NCBI RefSeq assembly: GCF_010500245.1
Contig: NZ_JAAGOX010000002.1
Coordinates: 62,001 to 126,000 of the forward strand
DNA: 64,000 nucleotides
Source: Ruegeria sp. PrR005
Lineage (GTDB): Bacteria > Pseudomonadota > Alphaproteobacteria > Rhodobacterales > Rhodobacteraceae
Direction of reading: 5' to 3'
A program made the position numbers and the translations under genes. Below, one piece after another: positions 30,493 to 47,135 of the stretch. Below the pieces are notes generated by a model, which did no database searches, was not told where the DNA came from, and saw only the letters and a list, made by a program, of their open reading frames with translations. The first letter of the stretch is position 1. Every line of letters starts with the position of its first letter.

Positions 30493-31209
30493 ATGCAGAA
30501 TTTTGCGCAAGAAATGCAAACTGCCTTTGCCCTGATTCTGACCGGCGATTCCGAATTGCTAGGCATTGTCGGGTTGTCGCTGTGGGTGTCGCTGCTTGCG
30601 GTTCTGTTTGCGGCTCTGATCGGCATGCCGCTGGGCGCTGCGCTGGCGGTGGGTCGGTTTCCCGGCCGCCGTGCGCTGGTGGTATTGGTCAATGCGCTGA
30701 TGGGGCTGCCGCCGGTGGTGGTGGGGCTGCTTGTCTATCTTATGTTGTCGCGCTCTGGCCCGCTTGGGGTGTTGCAACTGCTCTACACGCCAACCGCCAT
30801 GATCATCGCGCAGGTGGCGCTGGTCACCCCGATCATCGCTGCGCTGACCCGGCAGGTGATCGAGATGCTGGATGCCGAATATGCCGAGCAGATGCGCAGC
30901 CTAGGCCTGTCGCGGCTGGCCACTGTTCCGGTCCTGTTGTGGGACGGTCGGGTGGCGCTGCTGACCGCGTTGCTGGCCGGTTTTGGGCGCGCCATTGCCG
31001 AGGTTGGCGCGGTGATCATCGTCGGAGGCAATATCAACCACGTCACCCGGGTGATGACCACGACAATCGCTCTGGAGACCTCCAAGGGAAATCTGGCGCT
31101 GGCCTTGGCATTGGGGACGGTCCTGATTGCCATTGCAGTCACTGTAAACGCGATGGTCAGCCTGCTCGGGCAGCAGTCCGAAGCGCAGGACGAGGTCCGG
31201 CATGCGTGA
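30493..31209 (+). CDS. tupB: tungstate ABC transporter permease TupB
   Basis: 238-residue permease with five or six spans, of the tungstate (TupB) type. MGLPPVVVGLLVYLMLSRSGPLG and the coupling region AEQMRSLGLSRLATVPVLLW are visible, followed by RAIAEVGAVIIVGGNINHVT, a signature stretch of TupB-like permeases. The 3' end overlaps or abuts tupC. Adjacent tupC and tupA define the system. The neighbouring formate dehydrogenase explains the tungsten demand. Confidence 0.92.
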   Translation: MQNFAQEMQTAFALILTGDSELLGIVGLSLWVSLLAVLFAALIGMPLGAALAVGRFPGRRALVVLVNALMGLPPVVVGLLVYLMLSRSGPLGVLQLLYTPTAMIIAQVALVTPIIAALTRQVIEMLDAEYAEQMRSLGLSRLATVPVLLWDGRVALLTALLAGFGRAIAEVGAVIIVGGNINHVTRVMTTTIALETSKGNLALALALGTVLIAIAVTVNAMVSLLGQQSEAQDEVRHA

Positions 31210-31228
31210 TTTCTGCGGAGGACATGGT

Positions 31229-31936
31229 GTGCTGATCGAAGCCACGGGCCTGCGCTTGGTACGCGGCGACAAACTCCTTCTGGACATTGCGCATCTGCGG
31301 TTGGGCGGACCGGGGCCGACGGTGATCCTGGGGCCGAACGGTGCCGGAAAGAGCCTGCTGTTGCGCTGCTTGCACGGGCTGATTCGCGCGGATGCGGGGC
31401 AGGTTTTCCAGGACGGGTTGCCGTTGAACAAAGCCCAGCGGATGCGGCAGGCGATGGTCTTTCAGCGCCCGGTCCTGTTGCGCCGCTCGGTGGCGGCCAA
31501 TCTCGACTTTGTGCTGCGAAGAAGGGGTTTGTCGCGCTCCGCGCGGCGAGAGCGGATCGCCGATTTACTGGCAACAGGCGGATTGAGCGGACGGGAGCGG
31601 CAATGGGCGCGCTCGCTGTCGGGGGGTGAGGCTCAGCGCCTCGCGATCCTCAGGGCGTTGGCGACCGAGCCGGATGTACTGTTCCTGGATGAACCGACCA
31701 GTGCGCTCGACCCCGGAGCCACCCAGGCGATCGAGGCCCTGGTGATGCGTGCCAGCGCCCAGGGGGTGCGCATCGTTATGGTGACCCATGACATCGGGCA
31801 GGCCAGGCGTCTGGCGCGGGACGTGGTGGTGATGATCGGCGGGCAGGTGGCCGAACACGGGGACGTGGAACGTGTGTTCGGCGATGCAACGCATGGAACG
31901 GTCCGACGCTTTCTAGCTGGCGACCTGATTTTCTGA
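31229..31936 (+). CDS. tupC: tungstate ABC transporter ATP-binding protein TupC
   Basis: 235-residue ATPase with Walker A GPNGAGKSLLLRCLHGL, Q-loop MVFQRPVLLRRSVAANLDF, signature LSGGEAQRLAILRALA, Walker B VLFLDEPTSALDP and H-loop VTHDIGQARRL. The start is uncertain. A GTG at 31229 has GCGGAGGA about 6 bp upstream and gives the usual N-terminus (LIEATGLRLVRGDKLLL). An ATG at 31202 overlapping the tupB stop is the alternative. Confidence 0.9.
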   Translation: MLIEATGLRLVRGDKLLLDIAHLRLGGPGPTVILGPNGAGKSLLLRCLHGLIRADAGQVFQDGLPLNKAQRMRQAMVFQRPVLLRRSVAANLDFVLRRRGLSRSARRERIADLLATGGLSGRERQWARSLSGGEAQRLAILRALATEPDVLFLDEPTSALDPGATQAIEALVMRASAQGVRIVMVTHDIGQARRLARDVVVMIGGQVAEHGDVERVFGDATHGTVRRFLAGDLIF

Positions 31937-31955
31937 ACAAGACGGAGAGAACTCG

Positions 31956-32774
31956 ATGTTCGAAACATGGATCAAGGCCTGCGCTGTTGCGCTGGCCATC
32001 GTTGGGGCAGGGACCGCACTAGCGGCCGAAGAGTTCATCGTGGTCCAGTCCACCACGTCGACGCAGAACTCGGGGCTTCTCGACCATATCCTTCCCGCGT
32101 TCGAGGCGGAAAGCGGGATCGAGGTGCGGGTCGTCGCCGTTGGGACCGGTCAGGCGATCAAGAATGCGACCAATGGCGATGGAGACGTGTTGTTGGTGCA
32201 TGCAAAAGCGGCGGAAGAGAAATTCGTGGCCGAAGGCTGGGGCGTTCAACGGTTCGACGTGATGTACAACGATTTCGTGCTGGTGGGCCCGGCAGCGGAT
32301 CAGGCAGGTATCAAGGGGGGTGCGGATGTGGTCGCTGCGATGACCGTCATCGCCAAGGCGCAGGCGCCCTTTGCCTCGCGCGGCGATGACAGCGGTACGC
32401 ACAAGGCGGAACTGCGCCACTGGACATCCGCCGGCGTGGATGTCGCCGCCGCTTCGGGCGGCTGGTATCGCGAAACCGGATCGGGGATGGGCGCAACGCT
32501 GAACCTGGCCGCCGGCATGGGTGCCTATGCGCTGACCGACCGCGCGACCTGGATCGCCTTTGCCAACAAAGGCGACCTTGAGATCATGGTCGAAGGCGAC
32601 ACGCGGCTTTTCAACCAGTATGGCGTGATCCTGGTGAACCCGGAGAAGCACCCGGGCGTCAAGGCAATAGCCGGTCAAAGGTTTATCGACTGGCTGATCG
32701 GGCCAGAGGGCCAAGCCGCGATCGCATCCTATACACTGGACGGGCAGCAATTGTTCTTTCCCAACGCCAGGTAA
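31956..32774 (+). CDS. tupA: tungstate-binding protein TupA
   Basis: 272-residue periplasmic tungstate receptor with a signal peptide (residues 1-23, cleavage near ALAAEE). The anion-binding TTST motif is in VVQSTTSTQNSGLLDHILP. ATNGDGDVLLVHAKAAEEKFV and FVLVGPAAD are typical of TupA, and SRGDDSGTHKAELRHW holds further anion-site residues. It ends the tupBCA operon. The first and last parts of this protein match the N-terminal half of the cytochrome fusion at 44379-45107. Confidence 0.93.
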   Translation: MFETWIKACAVALAIVGAGTALAAEEFIVVQSTTSTQNSGLLDHILPAFEAESGIEVRVVAVGTGQAIKNATNGDGDVLLVHAKAAEEKFVAEGWGVQRFDVMYNDFVLVGPAADQAGIKGGADVVAAMTVIAKAQAPFASRGDDSGTHKAELRHWTSAGVDVAAASGGWYRETGSGMGATLNLAAGMGAYALTDRATWIAFANKGDLEIMVEGDTRLFNQYGVILVNPEKHPGVKAIAGQRFIDWLIGPEGQAAIASYTLDGQQLFFPNAR

Positions 32775-33736: not shown

Positions 33737-33862
33737 TCAGTCGAGGCGTACGTCGTTGCCAGTGGCCCGGTCGGCCGCGGAAAAGCCGAACTGGTTCAGC
33801 GCATAGGGGGCGGCCACGGTCACGACGATCATCATGACAACAGCGCTCAGAAAGGCTTTCAT
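33737..33862 (-). CDS. 41-residue membrane or secreted peptide in the formate dehydrogenase operon
   Basis: A single hydrophobic segment (residues 3-20, AFLSAVVMMIVVTVAAPYAL) and a polar tail ending NDVRLD. The ATG at 33862 overlaps the stop of the WD40-cytochrome gene by 4 bp, and the stop codon abuts the start of the regulator gene. This tight packing argues that it is translated. Function unknown; a small membrane anchor or assembly subunit of the complex is possible. Confidence 0.6.
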   Translation of the reverse strand: MKAFLSAVVMMIVVTVAAPYALNQFGFSAADRATGNDVRLD

Positions 33863-35130
33863 TTCTGGTTCTCCACTTGAGTGGCCCGATGCAGGTAGGC
33901 GATCAGATCGGCGCGGTCCTGCGCTTGGGTGATCCTCTGCATCGGCATCTTTGATCCCGGAATGTAATGGTCCGGACCGAGGTCGAAAAGCAAATTGATC
34001 GTTTCGTCGGTCCAGATGATATCCGAACCTTTCAGCGTATCCGAATACAGATAGCCCGGCAGGGTGCCGGCAGGGCGGCCAAATATGCCAAAAAGCGTTG
34101 GGCCGGCCCGGCGCCCGCCACCGGGCGTCAATGCATGGCAGATCGAGCATTTGCGCGCGAACTGACGTTCGCCATTCTCCATCTTGTCCGGGTCTTTCAG
34201 GAAACTACGGTCCGTTTCCGCCATCTTTCCATGCTCGTCCAGTGAATCGATGGGCCAGCTGTACATGGTGTCGGCAATCCCGCCAGCGTGGATGTTCTCG
34301 CCGTCAGGAGAGAACGCCAGCGCCCAGACCGGTCCGTTCAGTGTGGCGCGAAAGTCTCGGGCGATACGCCACTCTGACGTGTCGATCACCATGATGTAGC
34401 CCTCTCCATCTCCTACGGCGAGGTGGTCGCGGTCTGGGCTCAGCGCCAGGGCCAGTATGGGGCGGCGATCCAGGGTGAAGTCACGTTCCGCCCCGGTTTC
34501 GAGATCCAGAATCCGGGTCACCCCATCGACCGCGCCATAGGCTAGCCAGCCATCGCTTTCATTCAGCACGATCTCGTTGATGCCAAAGCCGTGGCGCACA
34601 ACCTGGCGGACTTCCTGCCCGCTGCTCACATCCCAGAGCCGCAGCACGCCGTCCATGCCGGCAGAATAGAGGTGGGAACCGTCAGCGCTGAAGGCGACCG
34701 CGTTCACTCCGCTCCCGCTCGGACTCAGCAAGCGGCCTGTTGTGCCGTCTTGTGGCCAGAGGCCGATGGTTCCGTCCCAACTGGCGGTGGCGACATGGGT
34801 CTCGGACAGCGCCACTCCCACGATCTTGCCCTTGTGCTGTCCGACGACGGCGCCGCCGGGCCAGCGGCGCAGGGTAAAGTCGTCACTGACCGAATAGAGC
34901 GCGGTGCCATTGAATGCGACCGCGTTGACCGCGGCCTCATGCCCCTCCAGCCAGTTGGCCTGCGTCCCGGTCCACAGACCCACGGAATTGTCAAAACTGG
35001 CGGTGGCGATGCGCCCGTCTGGGGCGGTAGCGATTCCCATGATCGGGCCACCGTGCCCCTTGAGGGTAAAGAACTCCGCCGCCCCGGTTGCGGGCAACAG
35101 GATCATCGCCAGCGCCAGCGCCCGCATCAT
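33859..35130 (-). CDS. WD40-repeat protein fused to a C-terminal cytochrome c
   Basis: 423-residue periplasmic protein. The signal peptide is residues 1-18 (MMRALALAMILLPATGAA). WD40-type repeats fill residues about 20-305 (GHGGPIMGIATAPDGRIATASFDNSVGLW, GHEAAVNAVAFNGTALYSVSDDFTLRRW, AFSADGSHLYSAGMDGVLRLWD and others). A class I cytochrome c domain occupies residues about 325-423, with the haem site CSICH and axial-ligand Met in IPGSKMPM. The ATG at 35130 overlaps the gamma-subunit stop by ATGA. It may accept electrons from the formate dehydrogenase or hold it to another partner. The domain architecture is seen; the role is inferred. Confidence 0.85.
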   Translation of the reverse strand: MMRALALAMILLPATGAAEFFTLKGHGGPIMGIATAPDGRIATASFDNSVGLWTGTQANWLEGHEAAVNAVAFNGTALYSVSDDFTLRRWPGGAVVGQHKGKIVGVALSETHVATASWDGTIGLWPQDGTTGRLLSPSGSGVNAVAFSADGSHLYSAGMDGVLRLWDVSSGQEVRQVVRHGFGINEIVLNESDGWLAYGAVDGVTRILDLETGAERDFTLDRRPILALALSPDRDHLAVGDGEGYIMVIDTSEWRIARDFRATLNGPVWALAFSPDGENIHAGGIADTMYSWPIDSLDEHGKMAETDRSFLKDPDKMENGERQFARKCSICHALTPGGGRRAGPTLFGIFGRPAGTLPGYLYSDTLKGSDIIWTDETINLLFDLGPDHYIPGSKMPMQRITQAQDRADLIAYLHRATQVENQK

Positions 35131-36311
35131 TCCGCCGGAGTGGGCTTTCCCTGGGTGGCTTCGGCCGATTTGACCTCGTCCAGCCACAGCGAATGGTGTT
35201 CACGCGCCCATTGCTCTTCGACTTCGCCGGTTCCCATCGCGTCAAAGGCGCCTTCCATGCCCACCGAGCCCAGATAGATATGGGCGATGATGATGGTGAT
35301 GAAGGCAAAGGCCACGATGATGTGCCAGAGCTGGGCGAACTGCATCTCTTGATGCGGTCCCATTGTCTCAGTGAACGTCAGGCCCATCATTTGCGGCAGG
35401 CCGGTGGCATTGGCCAACGCAAAGGTCTTGGCGAACATCGGCATCTCAAACGGGAAGAGCAGCGACAGACCCGAAAGAGAGATGGACACGCCCAGCAGGA
35501 TGCAGAGCCAGAAGATGATCTTCTGCCCGGCATTGAACTTCTTGGCCGGTGGGTGGCTGCCCTTGCTGAACAGCCCGCCGCCGACGGCGAGCCATTTGAG
35601 GTCATGCCGGTTGGGGATGTTATGGGCGATCCAGTTGAGGGTGACGATCACCAGCCCCAGCATAAAGGCCCAGGCGATGTTGTTGTGTAGCCATTTACAG
35701 GCCAGCGCGATGGTCGCAAAACCTTCCTTGCCGAACAGCGGGATCAGGAAATCCCGACCATAGAGGGTGATCAGCCCCGATACGGCCAAGACCAAAAAGG
35801 ATCCGGCGAACAGCCAGTGGCCAAAACGTTCAAAATCAGTGAACCGTGTGACCGTGCGGCCGGTCTTCTCGCCGTCGATGCGGATCTTGCCACGGATCAA
35901 ATAGAAAAGCAGCAGCAAGGCCAGCATACCGCCCAGCGCATAGGTTCCATAATCGCGCAGCGGGCCGGCGCGGAAGGTCACCCACCACATGCCACTATCC
36001 TGGATGATAACGTCCGCCGCAGGTCCGCGGGCCGAGACGGTTACGTCTGCTGACCCGTAGCGCAGGGCGCGGTAAACTTCGCTGTCCGACGCGCCGCCTC
36101 GAATACCAAGCTGGGCCTCATAGGGAGATTCCTGACTTCCAGTATTACTGGAACGATAGGTCGGATCGACCTTTTCTCCACGCTGCCGGGCCAGAATATC
36201 CTCCAGTGTGGTGGCGCCACCGGTGGCAGATCGGTCGGGGGTTGCTTGCTCTTGTGCCCAGGCAGGCAGGGCGAGGCAGATAAGACAGAGGAGGAGTCGC
36301 AGAACCGGCAT
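35127..36311 (-). CDS. formate dehydrogenase gamma subunit (membrane cytochrome b)
   Basis: 394-residue quinone-reducing b-type cytochrome of the membrane formate dehydrogenase. It begins with a signal peptide (MPVLRLLLCLICLALPAWAQ) and a periplasmic extension of about 125 residues. About four to five spans follow, with haem-binding His candidates in RFGHWLFAGSF, KWLHNNIAWAFML and LWHIIVAFAFITIIIAHIYLG. The start at 36311 has GAGGG 6 bp upstream; the longer frame to 36428 overlaps the intergenic space and lacks a good signal. The N-terminal extension is a feature of the non-enteric FDH family. Confidence 0.9.
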   Translation of the reverse strand: MPVLRLLLCLICLALPAWAQEQATPDRSATGGATTLEDILARQRGEKVDPTYRSSNTGSQESPYEAQLGIRGGASDSEVYRALRYGSADVTVSARGPAADVIIQDSGMWWVTFRAGPLRDYGTYALGGMLALLLLFYLIRGKIRIDGEKTGRTVTRFTDFERFGHWLFAGSFLVLAVSGLITLYGRDFLIPLFGKEGFATIALACKWLHNNIAWAFMLGLVIVTLNWIAHNIPNRHDLKWLAVGGGLFSKGSHPPAKKFNAGQKIIFWLCILLGVSISLSGLSLLFPFEMPMFAKTFALANATGLPQMMGLTFTETMGPHQEMQFAQLWHIIVAFAFITIIIAHIYLGSVGMEGAFDAMGTGEVEEQWAREHHSLWLDEVKSAEATQGKPTPAE

Positions 36312-36434
36312 TTTACCCTCTTCGGCGGATCGCAGAAATCTTGCCCGCCACAAGGCGGAGCGGAGCGCTTTCAATGAAAACTCAAGTGGGGGACTGGCGC
36401 GGCAGGGCCGCGCCAGTCTGTTGTTCAAGCGGGA

Positions 36435-37028
36435 TCATCCGCCTTTCTGGTCATAGGCCGTGCCCCAGCCCCAGGCGCCCGAACCGAAGCCACGGGCCAC
36501 TACGCGTTCGCGGTAGATGGCCGAGACCACATCGCCATCGCCCGCCAGAAGTGCCTTGGTCGAACACATTTCGGCGCAGATGGGCAGCTTGCCCTCGGCG
36601 ATCCGGTTGCGCCCGTACTTGGCAAATTCGGCGGTGGAGTGGGTTTCCTCGGGGCCGCCGGCGCAGAAGGTGCACTTGTCCATCTTGCCGCGCGATCCGA
36701 AGTTGCCCGCCTGCGGATATTGCGGCGCGCCAAAGGGGCACGCGTAGAAGCAATAGCCGCAGCCGATGCACAGGTCCTTGGAATGCAGCACCACACCGTC
36801 TTCGGTCTGGTAGAAGCAGTCCACCGGGCAGACCGCCATGCAGGGGGCGTCCGAACAATGCATGCAGGCCACCGAGATCGAGCGCTCGCCCGGCTTGCCG
36901 TCATTGATCGTCACCACCCGGCGGCGGTTGATGCCCCAGGGCACCTCGTGCTCGTTCTTGCACGCGGTGACGCAGGCGTTGCACTCGATGCAGCGTTCAG
37001 CGTCGCAGAGAAACTTTGCTCTTGCCAT
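36435..37028 (-). CDS. fdh3B: formate dehydrogenase beta subunit, four [4Fe-4S] clusters
   Basis: 197-residue electron-transfer subunit with four ferredoxin-type cysteine groups: CIECNACVTACKNEH, CMHCSDAPCMAVCPVDC, CIGCGYCFYACPFGAP, and CTFC with a later CAEMCSTKAL. Unlike E. coli FdnH/FdoH it lacks a C-terminal membrane anchor and is shorter, matching the FDH3-type beta subunit. It sits between alpha (12 bp upstream) and gamma, completing the heterotrimer. Confidence 0.92.
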   Translation of the reverse strand: MARAKFLCDAERCIECNACVTACKNEHEVPWGINRRRVVTINDGKPGERSISVACMHCSDAPCMAVCPVDCFYQTEDGVVLHSKDLCIGCGYCFYACPFGAPQYPQAGNFGSRGKMDKCTFCAGGPEETHSTAEFAKYGRNRIAEGKLPICAEMCSTKALLAGDGDVVSAIYRERVVARGFGSGAWGWGTAYDQKGG

Positions 37029-37040
37029 GATCGGTCCTCC

Positions 37041-39935
37041 TTACGCTGCCCAGATCTTGCAGAGAGTTGCTTTGGTCTCCTGCATCTGGGTCACTGAATC
37101 GTAGCCATAGGTCTGGGCGGTGTTGGACGCTTCGCCCAGGACATAGGGATCGGCCCCGGCCGGATACTTCGACCTGAGATCGTCGCCCTGGAAGTGCCCG
37201 CCAAAATGGAAGGGCATGAAGGCCACGCCGGCACCGACCCTTTCGGTCAGCATCGCCATCACCTTGACCTTGCCGCCTTCGGGACCTTCGACCCAGACCT
37301 GCTGCCCATCGCGAATGCCCAGATTGTTGGCATCGCGGGGGTTGATCTCGACGAACATGTCCTGCTGCAACTCGGCCAGCCACGGGTTCGAACGCGTCTC
37401 GTCGCCGCCGCCCTCGTATTCGACCAATCGGCCCGAGGTCAGGATGATCGGATAATCCTTCGAGAAGTCATTCTTCTGGATCGACGCATAAAGCGTCGGC
37501 AGACGATAGAACTTGCGGTCCTCGTAGGTTGGATAATCCGCCACCAGATCGCGCCGGTTGGTGTAGAGCGGTTCACGGTGTACAGGGATCGGATCCGGGA
37601 AGGTCCAGACCACGGCACGAGCCTTGGCATTGCCGAAGGGCGCGCAGCCATGCTTGATCGCCACCCGCTGGATGCCGCCTGAAAGGTCGGTCTTCCAGTT
37701 GGTCTTTTCGGCCGCCACAGCATCGATCGCCGCACGTTCCTCAGGCGTCAGGTCGCCGTCCCAGCCCAGGTCCATCAGCATCTGCATGGTGAACTCAGGA
37801 TATCCGTCCTGGATCTCCGCACCCGGGTTCGACACGCCTTCGGCCAGAAGGTTGTCGCCATCCCGCTCGACCCCGAAACGTGCCCGGAAGCACAGACCGC
37901 CTTCGGCAACCGGCTTGGACATGTCATAGAGGTTGGGCGTACCCGGATGGCCCATCTCGGCGGTGCCCCAGCAGGGCCAGGGCAGGCCATAGTACTCGCC
38001 GTCGTTGGGACCGCCCACCGCTTGCAGCGTTGTCCTGTCGAACGTGTGCTGGTTGGCCATGTGGCTCTTGATCCGCTCGGGCGACTGGCCGGTATAGCCG
38101 ATTGTCCAAAGGCCCGAGTTGAACTCCCGTGTGATGCTCTCGACGTTGGGCGTTTCCGGGTCATCCATTTCGATGTTCCGGAACAGCCGGTCGGCCCAGC
38201 CGAACTTGTTGGCGAACTTGGCCATGATGACCTCGTCCGGCAGCGATTCGAACAGCGGATCGACAACCTTGTCGCGCCACTGGAGCGAACGGTTCGAGGC
38301 CGTGACCGAGCCGCGGGTTTCGAACTGTGTACAGGCCGGCAGCAGGTAAACTCCGTCGGTCCGGTCATGCATGACAGCCGAGACGGTCGGATAGGGGTCG
38401 ATCACGACAAGCATGTCGAGCTTTTCCATCGCCGTCTTCATTTCCGTGCCACGGGTCTGGCTGTTGGGCGCGTGCCCCCACAGTACCATGGCGCGGACGT
38501 TGTTGGGCTGGTCCATGTTCTCCGGGTTTTCCAGCACGCCGTCGATCCAACGGCTGACCGGAATACCGGTTTCCAGCATCAGCGACTTGTCCTTGCCGTC
38601 CTTGTCCTTGACGGTGGCGAACTGCGCCTTGAGCCAGTCCATGTCCTCGCCCCAGACCCGGCCCCAATGGCCCCAGGCACCAGCTGTCAGGCCATAGTAG
38701 CCCGGCAGGGTATGGCTGAGCACGCCAAGGTCGGTTGCCCCTTGCACGTTGTCATGGCCGCGGAAGATGTTCGTGCCACCTCCGCTCGTGCCCATGTTGC
38801 CCAGCGCCAGCTGGAGCACGCAATAGGCGCGGGTATTGTTGTTGCCATTGGTATGCTGAGTGCCGCCCATGCACCAGATCACGGTGCCGGGGCGGTTGTT
38901 GGCCATCTGCATCGCCACGCGGCGCAACTGGCTTCCGGGCACGCCAGTGACGCGTTCGGTCTCTTCGGGAGTCCATTTCGCGACTTCGGCACGGATCTGG
39001 TCCATGCCCCAGACGCGGGTGCGGATGAATTCCTTGTCTTCCCAGCCGTTTTCAAAGATGTGCCACAGGATGCCCCAGACCAGCGCCACGTCGGTGCCGG
39101 GCCGGAAGCGCACGTATTCATCGGCATGCGCGGCCGTGCGGGTGAAGCGCGGGTCGCAGACGATGAGCGGTGCGTTGTTCTGCTCCTTGGCCTTCAGAAC
39201 GTGCAACAGCGAGACGGGATGCGCCTCGGCCGGGTTGCCGCCAATGATGAAGATGGCCTTGGAATTATGGATGTCGTTGTAGCTGTTCGTCATCGCGCCG
39301 TAGCCCCAGGTGTTGGCAACACCTGCAACGGTCGTCGAGTGACAGATACGCGCCTGATGATCCACGTTGTTCGTGCCCCAATAGGCGGCGAACTTGCGGA
39401 ACAGATAGGCCTGTTCGTTATTGTGCTTGGCTGAGCCCAGCCAGTAGACGCTGTCAGGTCCGCTTTCATCACGGATCTTCATCATGCCGTCGCCGATCTC
39501 GTTGATCGCCTGTTCCCAGCTGATGCGCTTCCACTCGCCGCCCTCTTTCTTCATCGGGTACTTGAGGCGGCGTTCGCCATGGGCATGCTCGCGGACCGAG
39601 GCCCCCTTGGCGCAGTGGGCGCCCAGGTTGAACGGGCTGTCCCAGCCGGGCTCCTGCCCGACCCAGACGCCGCTCTTGACTTCGGCGATGACGGTACAGC
39701 CCACCGAACAATGGGTGCAGACCGATTTCACGGTCTCAACGGCGGATCCGGCTGCCGTCTGGGCGCTGGCCTGCGTCACGGTACCGCCCGTGGCGCTGAT
39801 CGCGGCAAGGCCGCCGATCGCCAGACCCGAACCGCGCAGGAACGCGCGGCGGTCGACATGGGTGTCGCCGACCTGAGACAGGATCGAAGTCCGCTGGGGG
39901 CGTCGCGCAACCCCGTTGGTCTTTTTCCTTAGCAT
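37041..39935 (-). CDS. fdhA: formate dehydrogenase alpha subunit (Mo/W-bis-MGD, Cys type)
   Basis: 964-residue catalytic subunit oxidising formate to CO2, exported folded by Tat (signal DRRAFLRGSGLAIGG, Arg29-Arg30). The N-terminal [4Fe-4S] cluster is bound by Cys73, 76, 80 and 108 (CTHCSVGC, GAHCAKG). The metal ligand is Cys198 next to His199 in DHQARICHSTTVAG, so this is a cysteine and not a selenocysteine enzyme. MGD-binding stretches include WLGSAKHNNEQAYLFRK, IIGGNPAEAHPVSLLHVLKA and the C-terminal molydopterin-binding domain (LTSGRLVEYEGGGDETRSNP). The nearby TupBCA suggests tungsten as the metal. Confidence 0.95.
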   Translation of the reverse strand: MLRKKTNGVARRPQRTSILSQVGDTHVDRRAFLRGSGLAIGGLAAISATGGTVTQASAQTAAGSAVETVKSVCTHCSVGCTVIAEVKSGVWVGQEPGWDSPFNLGAHCAKGASVREHAHGERRLKYPMKKEGGEWKRISWEQAINEIGDGMMKIRDESGPDSVYWLGSAKHNNEQAYLFRKFAAYWGTNNVDHQARICHSTTVAGVANTWGYGAMTNSYNDIHNSKAIFIIGGNPAEAHPVSLLHVLKAKEQNNAPLIVCDPRFTRTAAHADEYVRFRPGTDVALVWGILWHIFENGWEDKEFIRTRVWGMDQIRAEVAKWTPEETERVTGVPGSQLRRVAMQMANNRPGTVIWCMGGTQHTNGNNNTRAYCVLQLALGNMGTSGGGTNIFRGHDNVQGATDLGVLSHTLPGYYGLTAGAWGHWGRVWGEDMDWLKAQFATVKDKDGKDKSLMLETGIPVSRWIDGVLENPENMDQPNNVRAMVLWGHAPNSQTRGTEMKTAMEKLDMLVVIDPYPTVSAVMHDRTDGVYLLPACTQFETRGSVTASNRSLQWRDKVVDPLFESLPDEVIMAKFANKFGWADRLFRNIEMDDPETPNVESITREFNSGLWTIGYTGQSPERIKSHMANQHTFDRTTLQAVGGPNDGEYYGLPWPCWGTAEMGHPGTPNLYDMSKPVAEGGLCFRARFGVERDGDNLLAEGVSNPGAEIQDGYPEFTMQMLMDLGWDGDLTPEERAAIDAVAAEKTNWKTDLSGGIQRVAIKHGCAPFGNAKARAVVWTFPDPIPVHREPLYTNRRDLVADYPTYEDRKFYRLPTLYASIQKNDFSKDYPIILTSGRLVEYEGGGDETRSNPWLAELQQDMFVEINPRDANNLGIRDGQQVWVEGPEGGKVKVMAMLTERVGAGVAFMPFHFGGHFQGDDLRSKYPAGADPYVLGEASNTAQTYGYDSVTQMQETKATLCKIWAA

Positions 39936-40294: not shown

Positions 40295-40906
40295 TCAGGC
40301 CGCCGTCATCCGGAAGGCTTCGCGTTCGATCTCCATGAACACCCGGCCGGCAGAGCCGACCGAGGCATAGAGCACCGAATTTTCGGCGCCTTCCAAATCC
40401 GTGAAGAAATGACCGGCCCAGGGGCCGATATGTCGTGCCCAGAAGGTTTTCTGGTCGTCCAGCGTAGCCGGTTTCCCGAACCGCCCCACGATCATGCCTG
40501 CCATCATTTCCATCAGCGAGGCGATATTGTCCTCGGGCTCATAGACATTCTGGGCGCGGGTAATGCCGCGAGCGGCCATGTCCTGACGCAGCTGCGCCAG
40601 CGGTTTTTCGTTCAGGAACCCGGTGAGGTAGTAACTGGCGTAAGGCAGCAGCTCGCCCCGTCCGAGACCGATGAACAGCGCGTTGAACTCGCGTTCCGCC
40701 GCGGCGGGTTTCGTCACCCGGGCCACACGCGCCATTGAACCGATGGCTTGGCCCAGGTCCGACTCGTCGCCCGATAGCCCTGCCACCTGGTTGAGCAGAA
40801 TCTGGTCAGGCGGCGCGGCCAGGATCAGCCCCAGAAAATTGTAGAAATCCGCGCGCAGCCGGTCCTCTTCGCCGATTGTGGGATTTGCTGTGCTGGTCTG
40901 GGCCAT
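40295..40906 (-). CDS. TorD-family molecular chaperone
   Basis: 203-residue helical cytoplasmic protein of the TorD/DmsD family. It is expected to bind the Tat signal of the alpha subunit and hold it for cofactor insertion. Family features: RADFYNFLGLILAAPPDQ near the N-terminus, EFNALFIGLGRGELLPYASYYLTGFLNEKPLAQLRQDM, DNIASLMEMMAGMIVG and WARHIGPWAGHFFTDL. It is encoded just before the small Tat protein and the alpha subunit. Confidence 0.92.
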   Translation of the reverse strand: MAQTSTANPTIGEEDRLRADFYNFLGLILAAPPDQILLNQVAGLSGDESDLGQAIGSMARVARVTKPAAAEREFNALFIGLGRGELLPYASYYLTGFLNEKPLAQLRQDMAARGITRAQNVYEPEDNIASLMEMMAGMIVGRFGKPATLDDQKTFWARHIGPWAGHFFTDLEGAENSVLYASVGSAGRVFMEIEREAFRMTAA

Positions 40907-40909
40907 TCT

Positions 40910-41524
40910 TTATCCTTCGAACGAAAAACGCATGCGGCGCGGAGCGGGGAGGGCGGGCGCCTCGGGGTCCCGCAAGGGGACCACCTCGTTGTCCGCGTCG
41001 GCTGCGGAAGCAGCCTCCATCTCGGGCGGGGAGGTCTCGGCAAGAGCCAGCGGGACCTCTTCAACCTTGTCTGGTGCGGCGGCGGGCAGATCTTCCTCTT
41101 CGGGATCCTCTTCACCGTTGGCCTGGGCGGCCAGAGCCTCGATATGAGCGAGCATGCCCTTGCCGACCTGATAGGCGGTTTGCAGGTTCTCCACCACAAG
41201 CGCGGCATCCGTATAGTCCTCGCCATAGTCGACCAAACCGTCAACATTCGCCAATACCGGGTTCAGTCGCCAAAGGCGGCGCAAGGCTCGGCGGCGGAGC
41301 CGGTCGGGTACCAGATCCGACATGAACCGTGCAACGTCATCGCCGGGTTGCAGCGTATCCGGATCGGGCAGTTCAAGCCGTTCAAGAATTTCGTCGTCGC
41401 TCTCCTGCTCCAGCGCCGCTTGCGCCTGTGCGCGTGCCTCGGCGCTCTGCGCTGCGGCTTCGGCGTGCTCTTCGGCGACAACCGCCGCGCGCCGCCTTGT
41501 CCAGAAATCGCCGCTTGCGCTCAT
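40910..41524 (-). CDS. DUF3306-type protein
   Basis: 204-residue acidic cytoplasmic protein. The N-terminal SGDFWTRRRAAVVAEEHA is the mark of the DUF3306 family, followed by an Ala/Glu-rich helix. The core reads VARFMSDLVPDRLRRRALRRLWRLNPVLANVDGLVDYGEDYTD. The C-terminal about 60 residues are low-complexity acidic. Its ATG overlaps the stop of the DUF3305 gene. The pair occurs with formate dehydrogenase genes and is presumed to help maturation; the molecular role is unknown. Confidence 0.85.
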   Translation of the reverse strand: MSASGDFWTRRRAAVVAEEHAEAAAQSAEARAQAQAALEQESDDEILERLELPDPDTLQPGDDVARFMSDLVPDRLRRRALRRLWRLNPVLANVDGLVDYGEDYTDAALVVENLQTAYQVGKGMLAHIEALAAQANGEEDPEEEDLPAAAPDKVEEVPLALAETSPPEMEAASAADADNEVVPLRDPEAPALPAPRRMRFSFEG

Positions 41525-42081
41525 TGCACAACCCTCCGGCCCGGCGCGCGGTAGACGTCGCTTTCCTGGCGGATTCGTGCATCGCCGCGCCCGTCTTCGA
41601 CCAGATCGACCCGCTTGCGATCCCGCTTGCGTTTGACAAAGCCCTCGGCCTCGAAATGAGCCAGCGCGAAGTCCCGTACCCAGGCAATCAGGCCCGGGGT
41701 CATCGCAATCTTTTCGACGATGTCATCGGATGTGTCGGCATAGTCCTGGCCTTCATACGGTGACGCCGTCACCAGAACCGCGTCCAGCGGTCGGTCGGCC
41801 GCCTCACTCTCGCGCAGAACCAGGTAGATGGAAGGTGTCCCGTCGGCCAGATTGATCATGTACGCTTCGGCGTCCGAGGACCACAGCACCAGGGGCAGAG
41901 TGGCCGCATGGTATTCGACCGCCTCACCTTCGCGCCGCAATTCCGACCAGTCGGCTGGTCCCGCCCCCGGAAGAACAGCGACGGCGCGCCAGTTCCAGCG
42001 CGCCCAGCGGGTCACGCCCGGCGATTTGCGGACAACCACGCCCAGCGGCATTTCGATGCGATTGTTTGCGGCCTTCGCCAA
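41521..42081 (-). CDS. DUF3305-type protein, first gene of the formate dehydrogenase operon
   Basis: 186-residue cytoplasmic protein with the DUF3305 pattern: an early MPLGVVVRKSPGVTRWARWNWRAVAVLPGA, LVLWSSDAEAYMINLADGTPSIYLVLR in the middle, and VTASPYEGQDYADTSDDIVEKIAM. The C-terminus is basic (KRKRDRKRV). It is transcribed first in the roughly 9-kb operon that runs to the regulator at 32864. The ATG is followed upstream by a GGGGAGAG-rich stretch in the divergent promoter region. Confidence 0.85.
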   Translation of the reverse strand: MAKAANNRIEMPLGVVVRKSPGVTRWARWNWRAVAVLPGAGPADWSELRREGEAVEYHAATLPLVLWSSDAEAYMINLADGTPSIYLVLRESEAADRPLDAVLVTASPYEGQDYADTSDDIVEKIAMTPGLIAWVRDFALAHFEAEGFVKRKRDRKRVDLVEDGRGDARIRQESDVYRAPGRRVVQ

Positions 42082-42375
42082 ACGGTCCTCCCCGGAAAGC
42101 TCTCCCCTTCTTTCCGTCCGTCAAACTATGCGAGGTAAAAACACGTCTGCCAAGGCTTTTGACGTGATTGGCCCTGTTTTCTTACCACAAAAGATATAGT
42201 GAAGATGTATCTTTGTTTGGCCATCTTTGACCAGCTAGCGCGTTTGGTTTGTTGGCAAAGGGAAGATGTACAAATTTTTACCGTTGGCCATGCGGCCTTT
42301 ACCGAGCGCTCTGGCTGGGCCACATTCCACGACGGGAGAAGGAAGGTCCGCAGTACCGGATCGGATGGAGAGAGA
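42082..42375. promoter_or_regulatory. divergent promoter region between the formate dehydrogenase operon and the multi-cluster Fe-S gene
   Basis: 294 bp, AT-rich in the middle (42120-42290), with no gene supported. AGATA-N11-TATCT forms a spaced repeat at 42192-42212, and the octamer GAAGATGT occurs twice (42201 and about 42262). These are candidate sites for the operon-encoded HTH regulator; the evidence is weak. Confidence 0.4.
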
Positions 42376-44325
42376 ATGTCCAAGACTTTGATTCTGTGCG
42401 ATTGTGCCGGGTCCCAGAGCATTGATGCCGAGCGGATCTCTACGGCTTGCGGGGCCGGGTGTTCGCGCGTCTACCGGTCGCTTTGCACCACGGAACTGGA
42501 AAAGGCGGCGAATCTGCTTCAGTCCGGCGAGGCCATTATCGCCTGCGGACAGGAACAGGACGCGTTCACGGCCCTGGCTGAAGACCTGGGCGTCGAAACG
42601 CCCGGATCTGTCGATCTGCGGGACCGTGCGGGCTGGTCCGACCAGGGGGCACAGGCCGCCCCCAAGATGGCGGCGCTGGTGGCCGAGGCATTTATGCCGG
42701 TTCCGGTGACCCCGGCGGTGGATGTGCTCAGCGAGGGGGTATGCCTGATCGCCGGTCCTGCCCAAGCTGTCTGCGATCTGGCAGAGCGACTGTCAGGGGC
42801 ACTGGCGGTGACAGCCCTGATCACCGAAGGCGACCTGCCGATGACACGCGCCTATGACGTGGTGACCGGAAAACTGGTTCGGGTGCAAGGCGCCCTGGGC
42901 GGTTTCCGGTTGCGGATCGACGGGTTCCGTCAGATCCAACCCGGGGGGCGTGGGGCCTTTGAACTGACCGTGCCAAAGGATCGCGCCGTGTCAGAGTGTG
43001 ATATCGTGATCGACCTTACCGGCGGCACACCCATGGTTCCGGCCTGGGAGAAACGCGAAGGGTATCTGCGCGCCGATCCGCGCGACAGGCTGGCGGTCGA
43101 ACGCCTGGCGTTTGAGGCCGCGCAACTGACCGGGACATTCGAAAAACCGCTCTATATCCGGCTGAACGAAAGCCTGTGCGCCCATTCGCGGGCCGAACAG
43201 ACCGGCTGTTCGAATTGCCTCGATATCTGTCCGACCGGGGCGATCACACCGGCGGGCGATCACGTGTCCATCGATCCGATGGTGTGTGCAGGTTGCGGCG
43301 CCTGTGCGGCGCTGTGCCCCTCGACCGCGATCACCTATGAAGACCCCGCGCTTGCCACCCTCCTGGCGCGCATGCAGATCCTGGCGCGGACCTATCGCAA
43401 GGCGGGCGGCGCCGCGCCACGCCTGTTGGTTCATGACGCGCACGGGGCCGAGATGATCCGCCTCGCCGCTCGCTTCGGCCGGGGTTTGCCTGCGGATGTC
43501 ATCCCGTTGGAACTGAACGTTGTTTCCGGTTTCGGCCATGCCGAGATGCTGGCCGGTCTGGCGCATGGGTTTGCTTCGGTATCGGTCCTGTGCGGTCCGA
43601 GGACCGAGCGCGAGGCTCTGGACCGGGAACTGGCGCTGGCCGTGGCGATTGCAGGGCCGGGGCGGGTGAGCCTGCTTGATATGACCGACCCTGACGCCTT
43701 GTCCGAACATCTGTACATGGCGGAGGTCAAAGCACCGCTGGCGGATCCAGTGCTGCCGATGGGCAATCGCAGGCAGGTCACGCGGCTGGCGGCGCAGGCC
43801 CTGAACCCCGGCGGGCCGGTTCTGCCGCTGCCCGAGGCAGCACCCTATGGCGCGGTGGTGGTGAACACGGATGCCTGTACCCTGTGCCTCAGCTGCGTGT
43901 CGCTCTGCCCTTCGGGGGCGTTGATCGACAATCCGGACATGCCTCAGTTGAACTTTCAGGAGGACGCCTGCCTGCAATGCGGCATCTGCCGCAACATCTG
44001 CCCGGAACAGGCGATCACGCTCGAACCTCGGCTCGACCTGTCCGAAGCGGCGCTTGGCCAGCGCGTGCTGAACGAGGAAGAGCCGTTTGCCTGTATCGAA
44101 TGCGGCGCGCTCTTCGGCGTCCGCTCGACCGTCGAACGGATCATGGAGAAGCTCGCGGGCAAACACCCGATGTTCGCCGAAAGCGCGCAGGCGCGGATGA
44201 TCCAGATGTGCGACAATTGCCGGGTGGGTGCCCAGTTCCAGGCGACGGACAACCCGTTTGCCGCCAAGGAACGGCCGCGCACGGTCACTACCGAGGACTA
44301 TTTCAGCAGGCGCAAGGATCATTGA
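42376..44325 (+). CDS. multi-[4Fe-4S] cluster protein of the formate dehydrogenase region
   Basis: 649-residue cytoplasmic iron-sulfur protein. The N-terminus has CDCAGSQ and CGAGCSRVYRSLC. Ferredoxin-type groups are at about residues 278-322 (CSNCLDICPTGAI, CAGCGACAALCPSTAI) and about 500-551 (CTLCLSCVSLCPSGAL, CLQCGICRNICPEQAI). The C-terminus adds CIECGALFG and CDNC. Overall it resembles the HdrA/ferredoxin-like protein commonly annotated next to DUF3305/DUF3306. The start at 42376 follows GGAGAGAG; the frame is open from 42199 but that part covers the promoter. It may shuttle electrons for assembly or link formate oxidation to NAD(P)H; not established. Confidence 0.85.
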   Translation: MSKTLILCDCAGSQSIDAERISTACGAGCSRVYRSLCTTELEKAANLLQSGEAIIACGQEQDAFTALAEDLGVETPGSVDLRDRAGWSDQGAQAAPKMAALVAEAFMPVPVTPAVDVLSEGVCLIAGPAQAVCDLAERLSGALAVTALITEGDLPMTRAYDVVTGKLVRVQGALGGFRLRIDGFRQIQPGGRGAFELTVPKDRAVSECDIVIDLTGGTPMVPAWEKREGYLRADPRDRLAVERLAFEAAQLTGTFEKPLYIRLNESLCAHSRAEQTGCSNCLDICPTGAITPAGDHVSIDPMVCAGCGACAALCPSTAITYEDPALATLLARMQILARTYRKAGGAAPRLLVHDAHGAEMIRLAARFGRGLPADVIPLELNVVSGFGHAEMLAGLAHGFASVSVLCGPRTEREALDRELALAVAIAGPGRVSLLDMTDPDALSEHLYMAEVKAPLADPVLPMGNRRQVTRLAAQALNPGGPVLPLPEAAPYGAVVVNTDACTLCLSCVSLCPSGALIDNPDMPQLNFQEDACLQCGICRNICPEQAITLEPRLDLSEAALGQRVLNEEEPFACIECGALFGVRSTVERIMEKLAGKHPMFAESAQARMIQMCDNCRVGAQFQATDNPFAAKERPRTVTTEDYFSRRKDH

Positions 44326-44378: not shown

Positions 44379-45107
44379 CTATTTCATGATCAGCGGCGCG
44401 CCCAGGTCTGCCGCGCCGGTTGCCGCGACAAAGGCAAGGATGGCCTCCAGCTCCTCTGGCGTCAGCGTCACCGGGTGGATTGGCGACGGGCGCTCGGCGT
44501 CAAAAGGCGCCGTGATGCCTTCGACCTGGGTAAAGGCGGGATGCGGGCGCAGAGCGTAGAAAGACTGAAACCGGCTGTCCCAATCGGACAGGGCGCGCAG
44601 CACGCCAAAGGACGGGGTAGAACCGATCCCTTTCATCCGGTTCTGCTCGCCAACCACATGACATCGCCCGCATTTTTCCAGCGACAATTGCGCGCCAACG
44701 GCCGCGTTGCCGTCAAACTGTGGCGCGGCTTCGGGTTCCGCTGTCTCGAAACTGGCGGAGTAAGCGGGGCCGTCCTGTGGCACGAAAGCTTCGATTGTCC
44801 GCTTGCCGATGTCGCTTTGCAACCAGTCCCGGAACCGTTCCTGCCGTTCCGACCCGTCGGTGCGAAGGAAGTAAACCACATCGCCGCGCCAGAAAACCGG
44901 CGCGTTGTCTGTTACGGTCGTCAGTTCCATCGGGCCTTCGGGGTCGATGATAACGCGAATTCCGGTCTTGAGCGAGAAGCGCGGCAGAATATGTTGCAGA
45001 AGACCCGAGCGTGCCACGGCCTCGGGGCTGGCCAGACCGATTGCCTCCTGCGCGGCGCAGGGGCTGGCGAAGGCGAGCAGGCTGAGGCACAAGAGGGCGT
45101 GTCGCAT
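44379..45107 (-). CDS. fusion of a truncated TupA-like domain with cytochrome c
   Basis: 242-residue periplasmic protein. The signal peptide is residues 1-19 (MRHALLCLSLLAFASPCAA). Residues about 28-52 (SPEAVARSGLLQHILPRF, then KTGIRVII) align with the start of TupA (STTSTQNSGLLDHILPAF, ESGIEVRVV). Residues about 92-116 (RFRDWLQSDIGKRTIEAF) align with the end of TupA (RFIDWLIGPEGQAAIASY). The middle 170 residues or so of TupA are missing and its TTST anion motif is replaced. A haem-binding domain with CGRCH follows to the C-terminus. It faces the multi-cluster gene and diverges from the Mrp operon. Probably an electron carrier or partner of the formate dehydrogenase. Confidence 0.8.
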   Translation of the reverse strand: MRHALLCLSLLAFASPCAAQEAIGLASPEAVARSGLLQHILPRFSLKTGIRVIIDPEGPMELTTVTDNAPVFWRGDVVYFLRTDGSERQERFRDWLQSDIGKRTIEAFVPQDGPAYSASFETAEPEAAPQFDGNAAVGAQLSLEKCGRCHVVGEQNRMKGIGSTPSFGVLRALSDWDSRFQSFYALRPHPAFTQVEGITAPFDAERPSPIHPVTLTPEELEAILAFVAATGAADLGAPLIMK

Positions 45108-45175
45108 GTTTCGCAGCGTAATGGCGGTGTGGGCGATGCGTCAATTGATGCGTGGAATACAGGAGAGACCGGCCC

Positions 45176-45373
45176 ATGAGCGGCGATTACAACATGTCGA
45201 TGCGCAAATTCCTCAAGCAGGTGGGCGTCACCAGCCAGCAGGCCATCGAGGAAGGCCTGCGCAAGGCCGGAACCCCCAAGGGCAAGGAATTCAAGGCAAA
45301 AATCGTCCTGACGGTCGAGGGGCTGGACGTTTCCCACGAGGTCACGGGCGTGATCCGGGACGGTGACGCATGA
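45176..45373 (+). CDS. small DUF6494-like protein
   Basis: 65-residue mostly helical protein (NMSMRKFLKQVGVTSQQAIEEGLRKA, then KGKEFKAKIVLTVEGLDVSHEVTGVI). The ATG at 45176 follows CAGGAGAG; a frame opening at 45152 is less likely. It overlaps the Mrp-type gene by ATGA. I recall this type as DUF6494, of unknown function, next to Mrp genes in alphaproteobacteria. Confidence 0.75.
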   Translation: MSGDYNMSMRKFLKQVGVTSQQAIEEGLRKAGTPKGKEFKAKIVLTVEGLDVSHEVTGVIRDGDA

Positions 45374-46431
45374 GCCTGCGTGACGCCGTTCTGGCCAACC
45401 TCAAGAAGATTACCGATCCGGCCTCGGGGCAGGATATCGTCAGCGCCGGAATCGTCCGGGCACTGAACGTGGACGGCGAAAATGTCCGTTTTGTACTCGA
45501 GATCGACCCCAAATTGGCCGAAATGTACAAGCCCGTACAAAGCGCCGCCGAGCAGGCCGCGCAGATGGTCGAAGGGGTCGCCAAGGTCTCGGCGCTGATG
45601 ACGGCGCATTCGGAAAAGGCGCCGCCCGATCTGAAACCGCGTGCCAAGGCAGCACCGCAGGGGCCGCAGCCGGTTGCCGGTGTGGACCGGATCGTTGCCG
45701 TAGCCTCGGGCAAGGGCGGGGTGGGCAAATCCACCGTGTCGGCCAACCTCGCTTGTGCGCTGGCCGCCGAAGGGCGGCGCGTGGGCCTGCTCGACGCCGA
45801 TGTTTATGGCCCGTCGCAGCCGCGCATGCTGGGCGTGTCGGGCCGGCCCGCCAGCCCGGATGGCAAGACCATCCTGCCGCTGAGGAACCATGGCGTGACC
45901 ATGATGTCGATGGGGCTGATGACCAACGAGGGGCAGGCGGTGGTCTGGCGCGGTCCCATGCTGATGGGCGCGCTGCAACAGATGATGAACCAGGTGCAAT
46001 GGGGCGGTCTGGATGTGCTGATCGTCGACCTGCCGCCGGGGACAGGCGATGTGCAACTGACGCTGAGCCAGAAATTCGCGGTGGATGGGGCCATCGTGGT
46101 CTCGACGCCGCAGGATGTGGCGCTGATCGACGCCCGCAAGGGGATCGACATGTTCCGCCAGCTCAAGACGCCGATCCTGGGCATGATCGAGAACATGTCG
46201 ACCCATATCTGCTCCAATTGCGGACATGAAGAGCATGTGTTCGGTCATGGCGGCGTTGCCGCCGAGGCGGAGAAGCTGGGCGTGCCGCTGTTGGGTGAGA
46301 TCCCGCTGCATCTCGACATCCGGGTCGCCGCCGATGGTGGCGCGCCGATCGTTGTCAGCAAGCCCGACAGCCCACAGGCCGAGGCGTTCCGCCGGATCGC
46401 GCGTGAGATGATCGCCAAGGGGCAAGCATGA
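45370..46431 (+). CDS. Mrp/NBP35-family P-loop Fe-S carrier
   Basis: 353-residue cytoplasmic ATPase that holds and delivers [4Fe-4S] clusters. The N-terminal MIP18-like domain (residues 1 to about 75) begins LRDAVLANLKKITDPASGQDIV. The deviant Walker A is GKGGVGKSTVSANLA. DLPPGTGDVQLTLSQ and the Fe-S CxxC in ICSNCGHEEHVFGHGG are characteristic. It overlaps the genes on both sides by 4 bp. The nearby formate dehydrogenase and Fe-S proteins together need at least eight [4Fe-4S] clusters, which makes them likely clients. Confidence 0.93.
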   Translation: MSLRDAVLANLKKITDPASGQDIVSAGIVRALNVDGENVRFVLEIDPKLAEMYKPVQSAAEQAAQMVEGVAKVSALMTAHSEKAPPDLKPRAKAAPQGPQPVAGVDRIVAVASGKGGVGKSTVSANLACALAAEGRRVGLLDADVYGPSQPRMLGVSGRPASPDGKTILPLRNHGVTMMSMGLMTNEGQAVVWRGPMLMGALQQMMNQVQWGGLDVLIVDLPPGTGDVQLTLSQKFAVDGAIVVSTPQDVALIDARKGIDMFRQLKTPILGMIENMSTHICSNCGHEEHVFGHGGVAAEAEKLGVPLLGEIPLHLDIRVAADGGAPIVVSKPDSPQAEAFRRIAREMIAKGQA

Positions 46432-47135
46432 GCACACCCACCTTTCCGCCGCTGATGCAGGGCGTTGCCGTGTCGGGGGGCGAGGCGCCGTTTGACCGCG
46501 CCCGCGCCATGGCGGCGATGGGCTGTGACGGCGGGACGGTGGTGCATAACGTGCAGGCCGACCGGCTGCGGGCGGCGCTGGTCTTTGCCCCCGAGGTGGT
46601 GCTGGCCGAGGCGATGGCGATGCTGCCGCTCTGCGGCGTGGGGTTCCAGAACGCGCTGGGCGCGCTGGCCCCGCCCGAGGTGGCGGTCCACCTGACCTGG
46701 GAGGGCGGCATTCGGGTGAACGGCGCGCTATGCGGGCAGTTGCAGGTGGCGGCGGATACGTCTGACCCGGCGCTGGTGCCCGACTGGCTGGTGGTCGGTC
46801 TGGACCTGGTGCTGTTGCAGACGACTGAGGACCCCGGCGAGACACCGGACCGCACCGCGCTTTATGAAGAGGGCTGTGCCGATGTGCCCGCCGAGCAACT
46901 GCTGGAAAGCTGGGCCCGGCATGTGATGACCTGGATCAACCGCTGGGAAAGCGATGGCAACGGGCCGCTGCATGCGGAATGGATGGGGCTGGTGCCGGGT
47001 GTCGGCGAAGCGGTGACGCGGGCGGGGATATCCGGCACCTTTCTGGGGGTCGACGAGCGGTTTGGCATGCTGATCCGCGATGACGCCACGACCCATCTGG
47101 TGCCGCTGACCGATGTTCTGGAGGATGAGGCATGA
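46428..47135 (+). CDS. biotin/lipoate ligase-like protein (DUF4444-type C-terminus)
   Basis: 235-residue protein. FPPLMQGVAVSGGEAPFDRARAMAAMGCDGGTVVH at the start and VAVHLTWEGGIRVNGALCGQLQVAA in the middle are like a biotin/lipoate-protein-ligase fold. GISGTFLGVDERFGMLIRDDATTHLVPLTDVL at the C-terminus is a small beta domain I recall as DUF4444. The Lys and Arg motifs of an active BirA or LplA are not obvious, so activity is uncertain. Overlaps with both neighbours by 4 bp indicate coupled translation with the Mrp protein. Confidence 0.65.
   Translation: MSTPTFPPLMQGVAVSGGEAPFDRARAMAAMGCDGGTVVHNVQADRLRAALVFAPEVVLAEAMAMLPLCGVGFQNALGALAPPEVAVHLTWEGGIRVNGALCGQLQVAADTSDPALVPDWLVVGLDLVLLQTTEDPGETPDRTALYEEGCADVPAEQLLESWARHVMTWINRWESDGNGPLHAEWMGLVPGVGEAVTRAGISGTFLGVDERFGMLIRDDATTHLVPLTDVLEDEA

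Follow-up and report, generated by a model that had tools for sequence, protein, structure and literature searches.

A single TupA-derived lobe fused to a cytochrome c at formate dehydrogenase loci of Rhodobacteraceae

Results

The window analysed here is a 64,000-nt stretch of the genome of Ruegeria sp. PrR005 (NZ_JAAGOX010000002.1, positions 62,001 to 126,000). One of its open reading frames encodes a protein of 242 amino acids with a start resembling a signal peptide; judged from the sequence, its front consists of a minimal lobe A from the tungstate-binding protein TupA, lacking lobe B, the joining strand and the anion site, and a monohaem cytochrome c domain is attached to it. Lobe-bearing fusions of this kind were found in 103 of 295 genomes of the same family (Rhodobacteraceae in the GTDB lineage, rich in marine members). 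The features of the protein and of its neighbourhood are listed in Table 1. The alignment used throughout comprises 105 proteins, from 104 fetched loci and the window, of which 103 carry the N-domain. The CxxCH motif expected of a c-type cytochrome in an exported protein is found in all 105, and the window protein has the signal-peptide-like start.

Table 1. Positions in the window of the fusion gene, its parts and the surrounding genes
Feature	Position	Strand	Basis
TupA-lobe/cytochrome c fusion, 242 aa	44379..45107	-	ORF, alignment
Signal peptide, residues 1-19	45051..45107	-	boundary inferred by eye
First TupA piece, ~residues 21-56 = TupA 25-62; beginning of lobe A, with the anion triplet replaced	44940..45047	-	
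Second TupA piece, ~residues 57-120 = TupA 202-270; return part of lobe A	44748..44939	-	
Arg43 to Lys47	44967..44981	-	alignment
Cytochrome c domain, residues 131-242	44382..44717	-	
CGRCH haem motif, residues 146-150	44658..44672	-	
His189, candidate second axial ligand	44541..44543	-	inferred
tupB, tupC, tupA: tungstate importer, source family of the lobe	30493..32774	+	
FDH gamma subunit (cytochrome b561 type)	35127..36428	-	
FDH beta subunit (4Fe-4S)	36435..37028	-	
Formate dehydrogenase alpha subunit, FDH3 type	37041..39935	-	annotation of relatives
TorD/NarJ-type chaperone	40295..40906	-	
DUF3306	40910..41524	-	
DUF3305	41521..42081	-	
4Fe-4S protein gene, convergent neighbour	42199..44325	+	
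DUF6494 protein, divergent neighbour	45152..45373	+	
Mrp/NUBPL-type Fe-S carrier	45370..46431	+	

Relationship of the N-terminal domain to TupA

An earlier note on this DNA, made from the sequence alone, had reported that the N-terminal part of the protein matches the start and the end of a TupA encoded 12 kb away. The TupA of the window lies at 31956-32774 (+), 11.6 kb from the fusion gene, and both matching patches are significant when profiles are compared. In a BLASTP comparison of the two proteins, residues 1-52 of the fusion align with TupA 6-57 at 35% identity and E = 1e-7, an alignment that takes in TupA's own signal. Queried with the protein, the genome of the window yielded the protein itself, TupA (residues 6-58, E = 8e-4) and one weak match, and TupA genes of further genomes were also matched in the 295-genome survey (in G216, for example, at E = 6.5e-6).

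Profile-profile comparison of 103 cytochrome N-domains with 49 TupAs aligned columns 2-39 of the cytochrome profile with TupA 25-62 (probability 93%, E = 3.6e-7) and columns 40-105 with TupA 202-270 (probability 96%, E = 3.8e-9); one global alignment of the N-domain with TupA reached a probability of 98%. Reversed TupA profiles (two modes) and five column-shuffled ones gave probabilities of at most 0.3%. TupA was matched at E < 1e-3 by 99 of the 103 lobe-bearing members, all except L086, L147, L169 and L172, and both patches matched TupA at E < 0.01 in 88 of 103, compared with 0 of 103 residue-shuffled N-domains. A profile search of the PDB (177,635 distinct sequences) gave seven hits at E <= 10, the best five of which are TupA-type proteins (3muq, 5my5, 3cvg, 3lr1 and 3kn3); all five match the window TupA too, with E-values of 7.6e-50 or lower for four of them and of 2.2e-9 for 3cvg. 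The NCBIfam TupA model was matched by 22 of 69 N-domains (best E = 1e-4), and no other NCBIfam model matched any of the 69 at E <= 0.01; the full window protein had no NCBIfam match.

Structure models, which we consider supportive of the sequence result and insufficient alone, give a similar picture. The N-domain was modelled from five sequences, and the best of five models had a pLDDT of 77.7 (the other four 48.8-64.3) and a pTM of 0.73. In a Foldseek search of the PDB with this model, TupAs occupied the first two ranks, with weak E-values: 3muq (probability 1.00, E = 8.4e-3) and 5my5 (probability 0.98, E = 0.067), the latter with a TM by query of 0.69 and an rmsd of 10.1 over 250 columns, counting gaps. 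A PstS followed at rank 3 and ModAs ranked lower. A predicted fold unrelated to TupA, which the earlier note had named as refuting its proposal, was not obtained. Origin from binding proteins in general, such as ModA or PstS, is not favoured, as TupA is the family named by the sequence searches. The model of the whole protein (mean pLDDT 50.9) lacks the quality needed to position the haem and the lobe, and a fold search with it gave TupA matches of merely 35-36 columns.

The kinship of the N-domain with TupA, in the sense of shared ancestry, is thus well supported by these comparisons. The notion that the likeness arose by chance or convergence could draw on the RFxDWL patch, which by itself reaches only E = 0.098 by BLASTP in the window pair, on the lack of any Pfam match among 69 N-domains, and on the Foldseek search with the N-domain model, which found nothing in the PDB at E <= 0.001. 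Each patch is nevertheless significant by profile, the PDB-wide and NCBIfam-wide searches both point to TupA, and the reversed, column-shuffled and residue-shuffled controls rule out a chance resemblance, so that we regard this notion as extremely improbable. The reading of the gene as a broken TupA copy is likewise rejected, because the 103 fused members retain the same layout and the same residues.

Parts of TupA retained and lost

Passages of PMC5517513 on the Desulfovibrio TupA assign A2-R76 and Y201-E251 to lobe A, A91-Q200 to lobe B and T77-P89 to the strand joining them. Mapped onto these lobes, both matching pieces fall within lobe A, in accordance with the single TupA lobe proposed in the earlier note. 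TupA residues ~63-201, which span the joining strand and lobe B in full, have no counterpart in the window protein; the absence of TupA's middle is therefore borne out, and its size is about 139 residues, not the 170 given earlier. The anion motif is missing as well: the triplet T33/T34/S35, present in 48 of 49 TupAs and a gap in the remaining one, is not conserved in the cytochromes, and H82, R142, T148 and D195, invariant in the 49 TupAs, all lie within the part absent from the cytochromes. From their context, these four are probably the His59, Arg118, Thr124 and Asp170 of PMC5517513. Since neither two lobes around a cleft nor the oxyanion residues of TupA (TT(T)S, His, Arg, Thr, Asp) are found, the fusion protein is not itself a TupA.

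Residues common to the cytochromes and TupA include G35, P42 and W95. Two others are new relative to TupA: Arg43 (103 of 103 members with a letter there; A, E or Q in TupA) and Lys47 (102 of 103; D or E in TupA), and the surface of the lobe has therefore changed at least in part. Gly35, Pro42, Arg43, Phe44, Lys47, Trp95 and Gly101 are each retained in 102 or 103 of the 105 rows. Mean column identity is 39% in the N-domain compared to 58% in the haem domain.

Some members (L164, L162, L167 and L153) have longer N-domains, with 157-167 residues ahead of the haem domain. L164 aligns with the first 84 residues of mature TupA without a large break (33% identity, E = 2e-7) and therefore looks less reduced; this alignment suggests that it may represent an intermediate of the reduction.

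Distribution and gene neighbourhood

The 295 genomes were searched for the cytochrome, the alpha subunit of formate dehydrogenase (FDH) and TupA, with cut-offs of our own choosing for the latter two (E <= 1e-200 and E <= 1e-30, respectively). Matches to the cytochrome were obtained in 112 genomes, of which seven were dropped: six (G030, G037, G083, G093, G179 and G216) where TupA genes matched only via the TupA-like end, and G152, where the stretch holds two stops. The latter (G152:C3:254593-254907) is haem-domain-like, in a genome with FDH and no intact cytochrome, and is perhaps a decaying copy. The resulting counts were 105 genomes with the cytochrome, 136 with the FDH alpha subunit and 194 with TupA.

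Among the 105 cytochrome genomes, 102 have FDH, 103 have tupA and 100 have both; the cytochrome is thus not common where FDH or tup genes are missing; had it been, this would have spoken against the original proposal. The co-occurrence is significant with p = 7e-45 for FDH and p = 4e-22 for TupA by Fisher's exact test, with related genomes treated as independent. The three carriers without a detected FDH (G019, G069 and G158) have the gene on contigs of only 8.3, 7.3 and 5.4 kb, and the FDH may therefore have been missed. The tie to formate dehydrogenase suggested by the earlier note is also positional: in all 94 same-contig pairs, the cytochrome lies upstream of the FDH gene on one strand at a distance of 4.2-6.0 kb. 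In the other 11 carriers the two genes are not on one contig or FDH was not found. FDH occurs without the cytochrome in 34 of 136 genomes, so the cytochrome is not essential to the enzyme, and tupA occurs without it in 91 genomes. None of the 34 FDH loci without the cytochrome contains any match to it; in 16 of the 18 with all three genes visible, the 4Fe-4S gene and the DUF6494 gene lie no more than 191 bases apart. As tup genes are present in 103 of 105 carriers, tungsten is plausible as the metal of the FDH, with molybdenum as the alternative.

The commonest gene orders can be summarized as [tupBCA] BPL< mrp< DUF6494< cyt> 4Fe-4S< DUF3305> DUF3306> torD> fdhA> fdhB> fdhC> [WD40-cytochrome]. 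The cytochrome gene stands alone on its strand, flanked by a divergent and a convergent gene and outside the fdhABC run. Counted over the 104 loci, including stretches cut by contig ends, the 4Fe-4S gene is present in 100, fdhA in 97, mrp in 95, DUF6494 in 88, the WD40-cytochrome in 57 and tupA in 40. A Sagittula plasmid has the same gene order, with fdh3B annotated and the cytochrome called hypothetical. More generally, some Roseobacteraceae have the whole locus or part of it on large plasmids (L175 and L176, of Sagittula and Sulfitobacter), where the cytochrome is annotated as a hypothetical protein or a c-type cytochrome.

Several neighbours deserve mention in their own right. The gene closing the FDH run of the window, at 33859-35187 (-), encodes a protein in which Pfam recognizes a WD40 propeller and a cytochrome c domain, making it the second unusual fusion of a cytochrome at this enzyme. 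Beside tupA, at 32864-33736 (-), lies a regulator-like gene with an HTH domain and a binding-protein-like domain, whose product is possibly a tungstate-responsive regulator. The genes at 45152-47135 (+) encode the DUF6494 protein, the Mrp-type Fe-S carrier and a biotin/lipoate-ligase-like protein, a trio that accompanies the FDH locus in many genomes, including those without the cytochrome.

The haem domain and the origin of the fusion

The attached haem domain noted earlier has its CGRCH motif at residues 146-150, and C146, R148, C149, H150 and H189 are invariant in all 105 proteins. After the motif, Met exceeds 30% in a single column, M158 (71 of 105). The two cysteines and both histidines also stay invariant across 36 aligned haem domains, a set that includes nine lobe-less ones. 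Given these invariant histidines, a bis-histidine haem with His150 and His189 as axial ligands is likely. Pfam PF00034 scores the window protein at 19.1 bits, below the cut-off of 21.3, and a search for solved structures related to the haem domain gave none at E <= 0.01.

The haem domain also occurs without the lobe. Across 385 genomes of the class, two outside the family, both from a single other family (G579 and G656), had the fused form, and eight further genomes had matches to the haem domain alone at E <= 1e-22. Across 349 genomes of the phylum there were ten matches at E <= 1e-6, every one of them in the same class. We examined three loci of lobe-less haem proteins. In L207, the gene lies exactly between the DUF6494 and 4Fe-4S genes of an FDH locus; in L209, it lies in an FDH locus between tupR and the WD40-cytochrome, with tupBCA next to them; in L208, it lies near tupA, mrp and a 4Fe-4S gene, and no fdhA was found within the 12 kb examined. 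Within the family, two of the 105 counted proteins (G004 and G054; L171 and L174) have the haem domain and a signal peptide without the lobe, and no other FDH-locus gene was found in their stretches.

The existence of lobe-less haem domains in other Alphaproteobacteria suggests that the lobe was added later, to an older cytochrome of the FDH locus. A tree of 117 haem domains, which rests on 109 columns and whose bootstrap had not settled, required three changes between the fused and separate states compared to a mean of 11.6 after shuffling. This would fit one gain and two losses of the lobe, with L207 either ancestral or a loss. We infer that a copy of tupA was joined in frame to the older cytochrome gene and its middle lost afterwards.

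Discussion

These results lead us to propose, with somewhat more belief than doubt, that the fusion protein would act in the periplasm as a carrier of electrons or a partner in assembly for the FDH3-type enzyme, with the lobe as its docking module. The haem domain would pass single electrons, probably by way of a bis-histidine haem, while the lobe would no longer bind tungstate and would hold the haem at its partner through the new basic patch on its first helix, formed by Arg43 and Lys47. The most likely partner would be the formate dehydrogenase of the periplasm, whose genes lie 4-6 kb downstream; the cytochrome may relieve this enzyme of electrons or help to activate it. The gene is encoded together with the FDH3-type enzyme, as one expects of a partner. 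By analogy of role, XoxG and XoxJ, which serve the XoxF methanol dehydrogenase, may be seen as a precedent: the sections of PMC7391723 concerned describe XoxF as dependent on both the periplasmic binding protein XoxJ and the cytochrome c XoxG. Such helpers therefore exist as separate proteins, and they differ from the fusion both in being two proteins and in serving another enzyme. Several observations count against this proposal: 34 of the 136 FDH genomes do without the cytochrome, its gene lies outside the fdhABC run, two family members have a haem domain with no lobe, and the separate WD40-cytochrome c (57 of 104 loci) could carry the electrons instead.

It is possible, if less to be expected, that the protein serves FDH3 in maturation or activation instead of carrying electrons, and keeps or brings the enzyme into a reduced, active state during its assembly in the periplasm. 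The flanking genes are indeed maturation-like (the Mrp-type Fe-S carrier, the 4Fe-4S protein, the TorD-type chaperone, DUF3305 and DUF3306), and XoxJ, a relative of periplasmic binding proteins, is suggested in parts of PMC7391723 to activate XoxF. The products of the flanking genes are, however, expected to be cytoplasmic, and the fusion protein would be located outside. To our knowledge, moreover, no maturation step needs a c-type haem. A connection with the importer, in which the lobe still docks on TupB in the way of TupA's own lobe A and the haem ties FDH or the redox state of the periplasm to tungstate uptake, appears unlikely. It would agree with the presence of tupA in 103 of 105 carriers (for 40 of 104 loci, inside the stretch that was fetched) and with the idea in sections of PMC5517513 that TupA meets its dimeric permease via two similar lobes; yet 91 genomes have tupA without the cytochrome, the distance to tupA is not fixed whereas that to FDH is, and Arg43 and Lys47 are new with respect to TupA.

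We consider it very unlikely that the fusion left an inert N-terminal part behind and that the haem domain alone matters. The haem domain does work without the lobe elsewhere, and in two members of the family, and the N-domain is the more variable of the two, but the retention of seven N-domain residues in nearly every row is not expected of an inert leftover. A broader version of the docking proposal, in which the lobe would be a stable docking domain with an evolution of its own, tying the haem to FDH and the tungstate importer alike, is in our judgement rather improbable. If true, it would mean that the metal supply and the electron flow of one enzyme are coupled via the remnant of that enzyme's own metal carrier.

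Compared with TupA (NCBIfam NF041772; PDB 5my5, 3lr1 and 3muq), the fusion shares the pieces of lobe A, the signal peptide and scaffold residues, and differs in having no lobe B and no anion-site residues and in possessing the invariant Arg43/Lys47 and the attached haem domain. Separate monohaem cytochromes at alphaproteobacterial FDH/tup loci (L184-L193 and L207-L209), for which we found no family name, share the CxxCH, STPSF-like and PH motifs with it and in one case (L207) the position in the locus; they differ in having no TupA lobe. The type name FDH3 (fdh3) of Methylobacterium matches the neighbouring enzyme in the annotation of a relative. The Methylobacterium enzyme is described as periplasmic in passages of PMC12180729, which mention no such cytochrome. 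DUF3305 and DUF3306 have been reported with fdh operons (PMC4464133), in a main text that does not use the term 'cytochrome c', and tungsten maturation in Methylorubrum is the topic of PMC13197769, from whose main text cytochromes are absent. In the literature searched, mostly outside the subscription journals, neither a TupA-cytochrome fusion nor this cytochrome was the subject of any paper we found, and a single TupA-derived lobe on a cytochrome of the FDH locus thus appears to be undescribed, as the earlier note had supposed.

The following considerations bear on why such a protein matters. Periplasmic binding proteins are usually regarded as two-lobe devices. In the cytochrome described here, one lobe of a binding protein has been kept, its ligand site stripped and a new invariant surface gained, which makes it a naturally occurring case of a transport protein that was halved and put to another use. 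For the periplasmic formate dehydrogenase of the FDH3 type, it would probably add a redox or assembly partner that has been overlooked.
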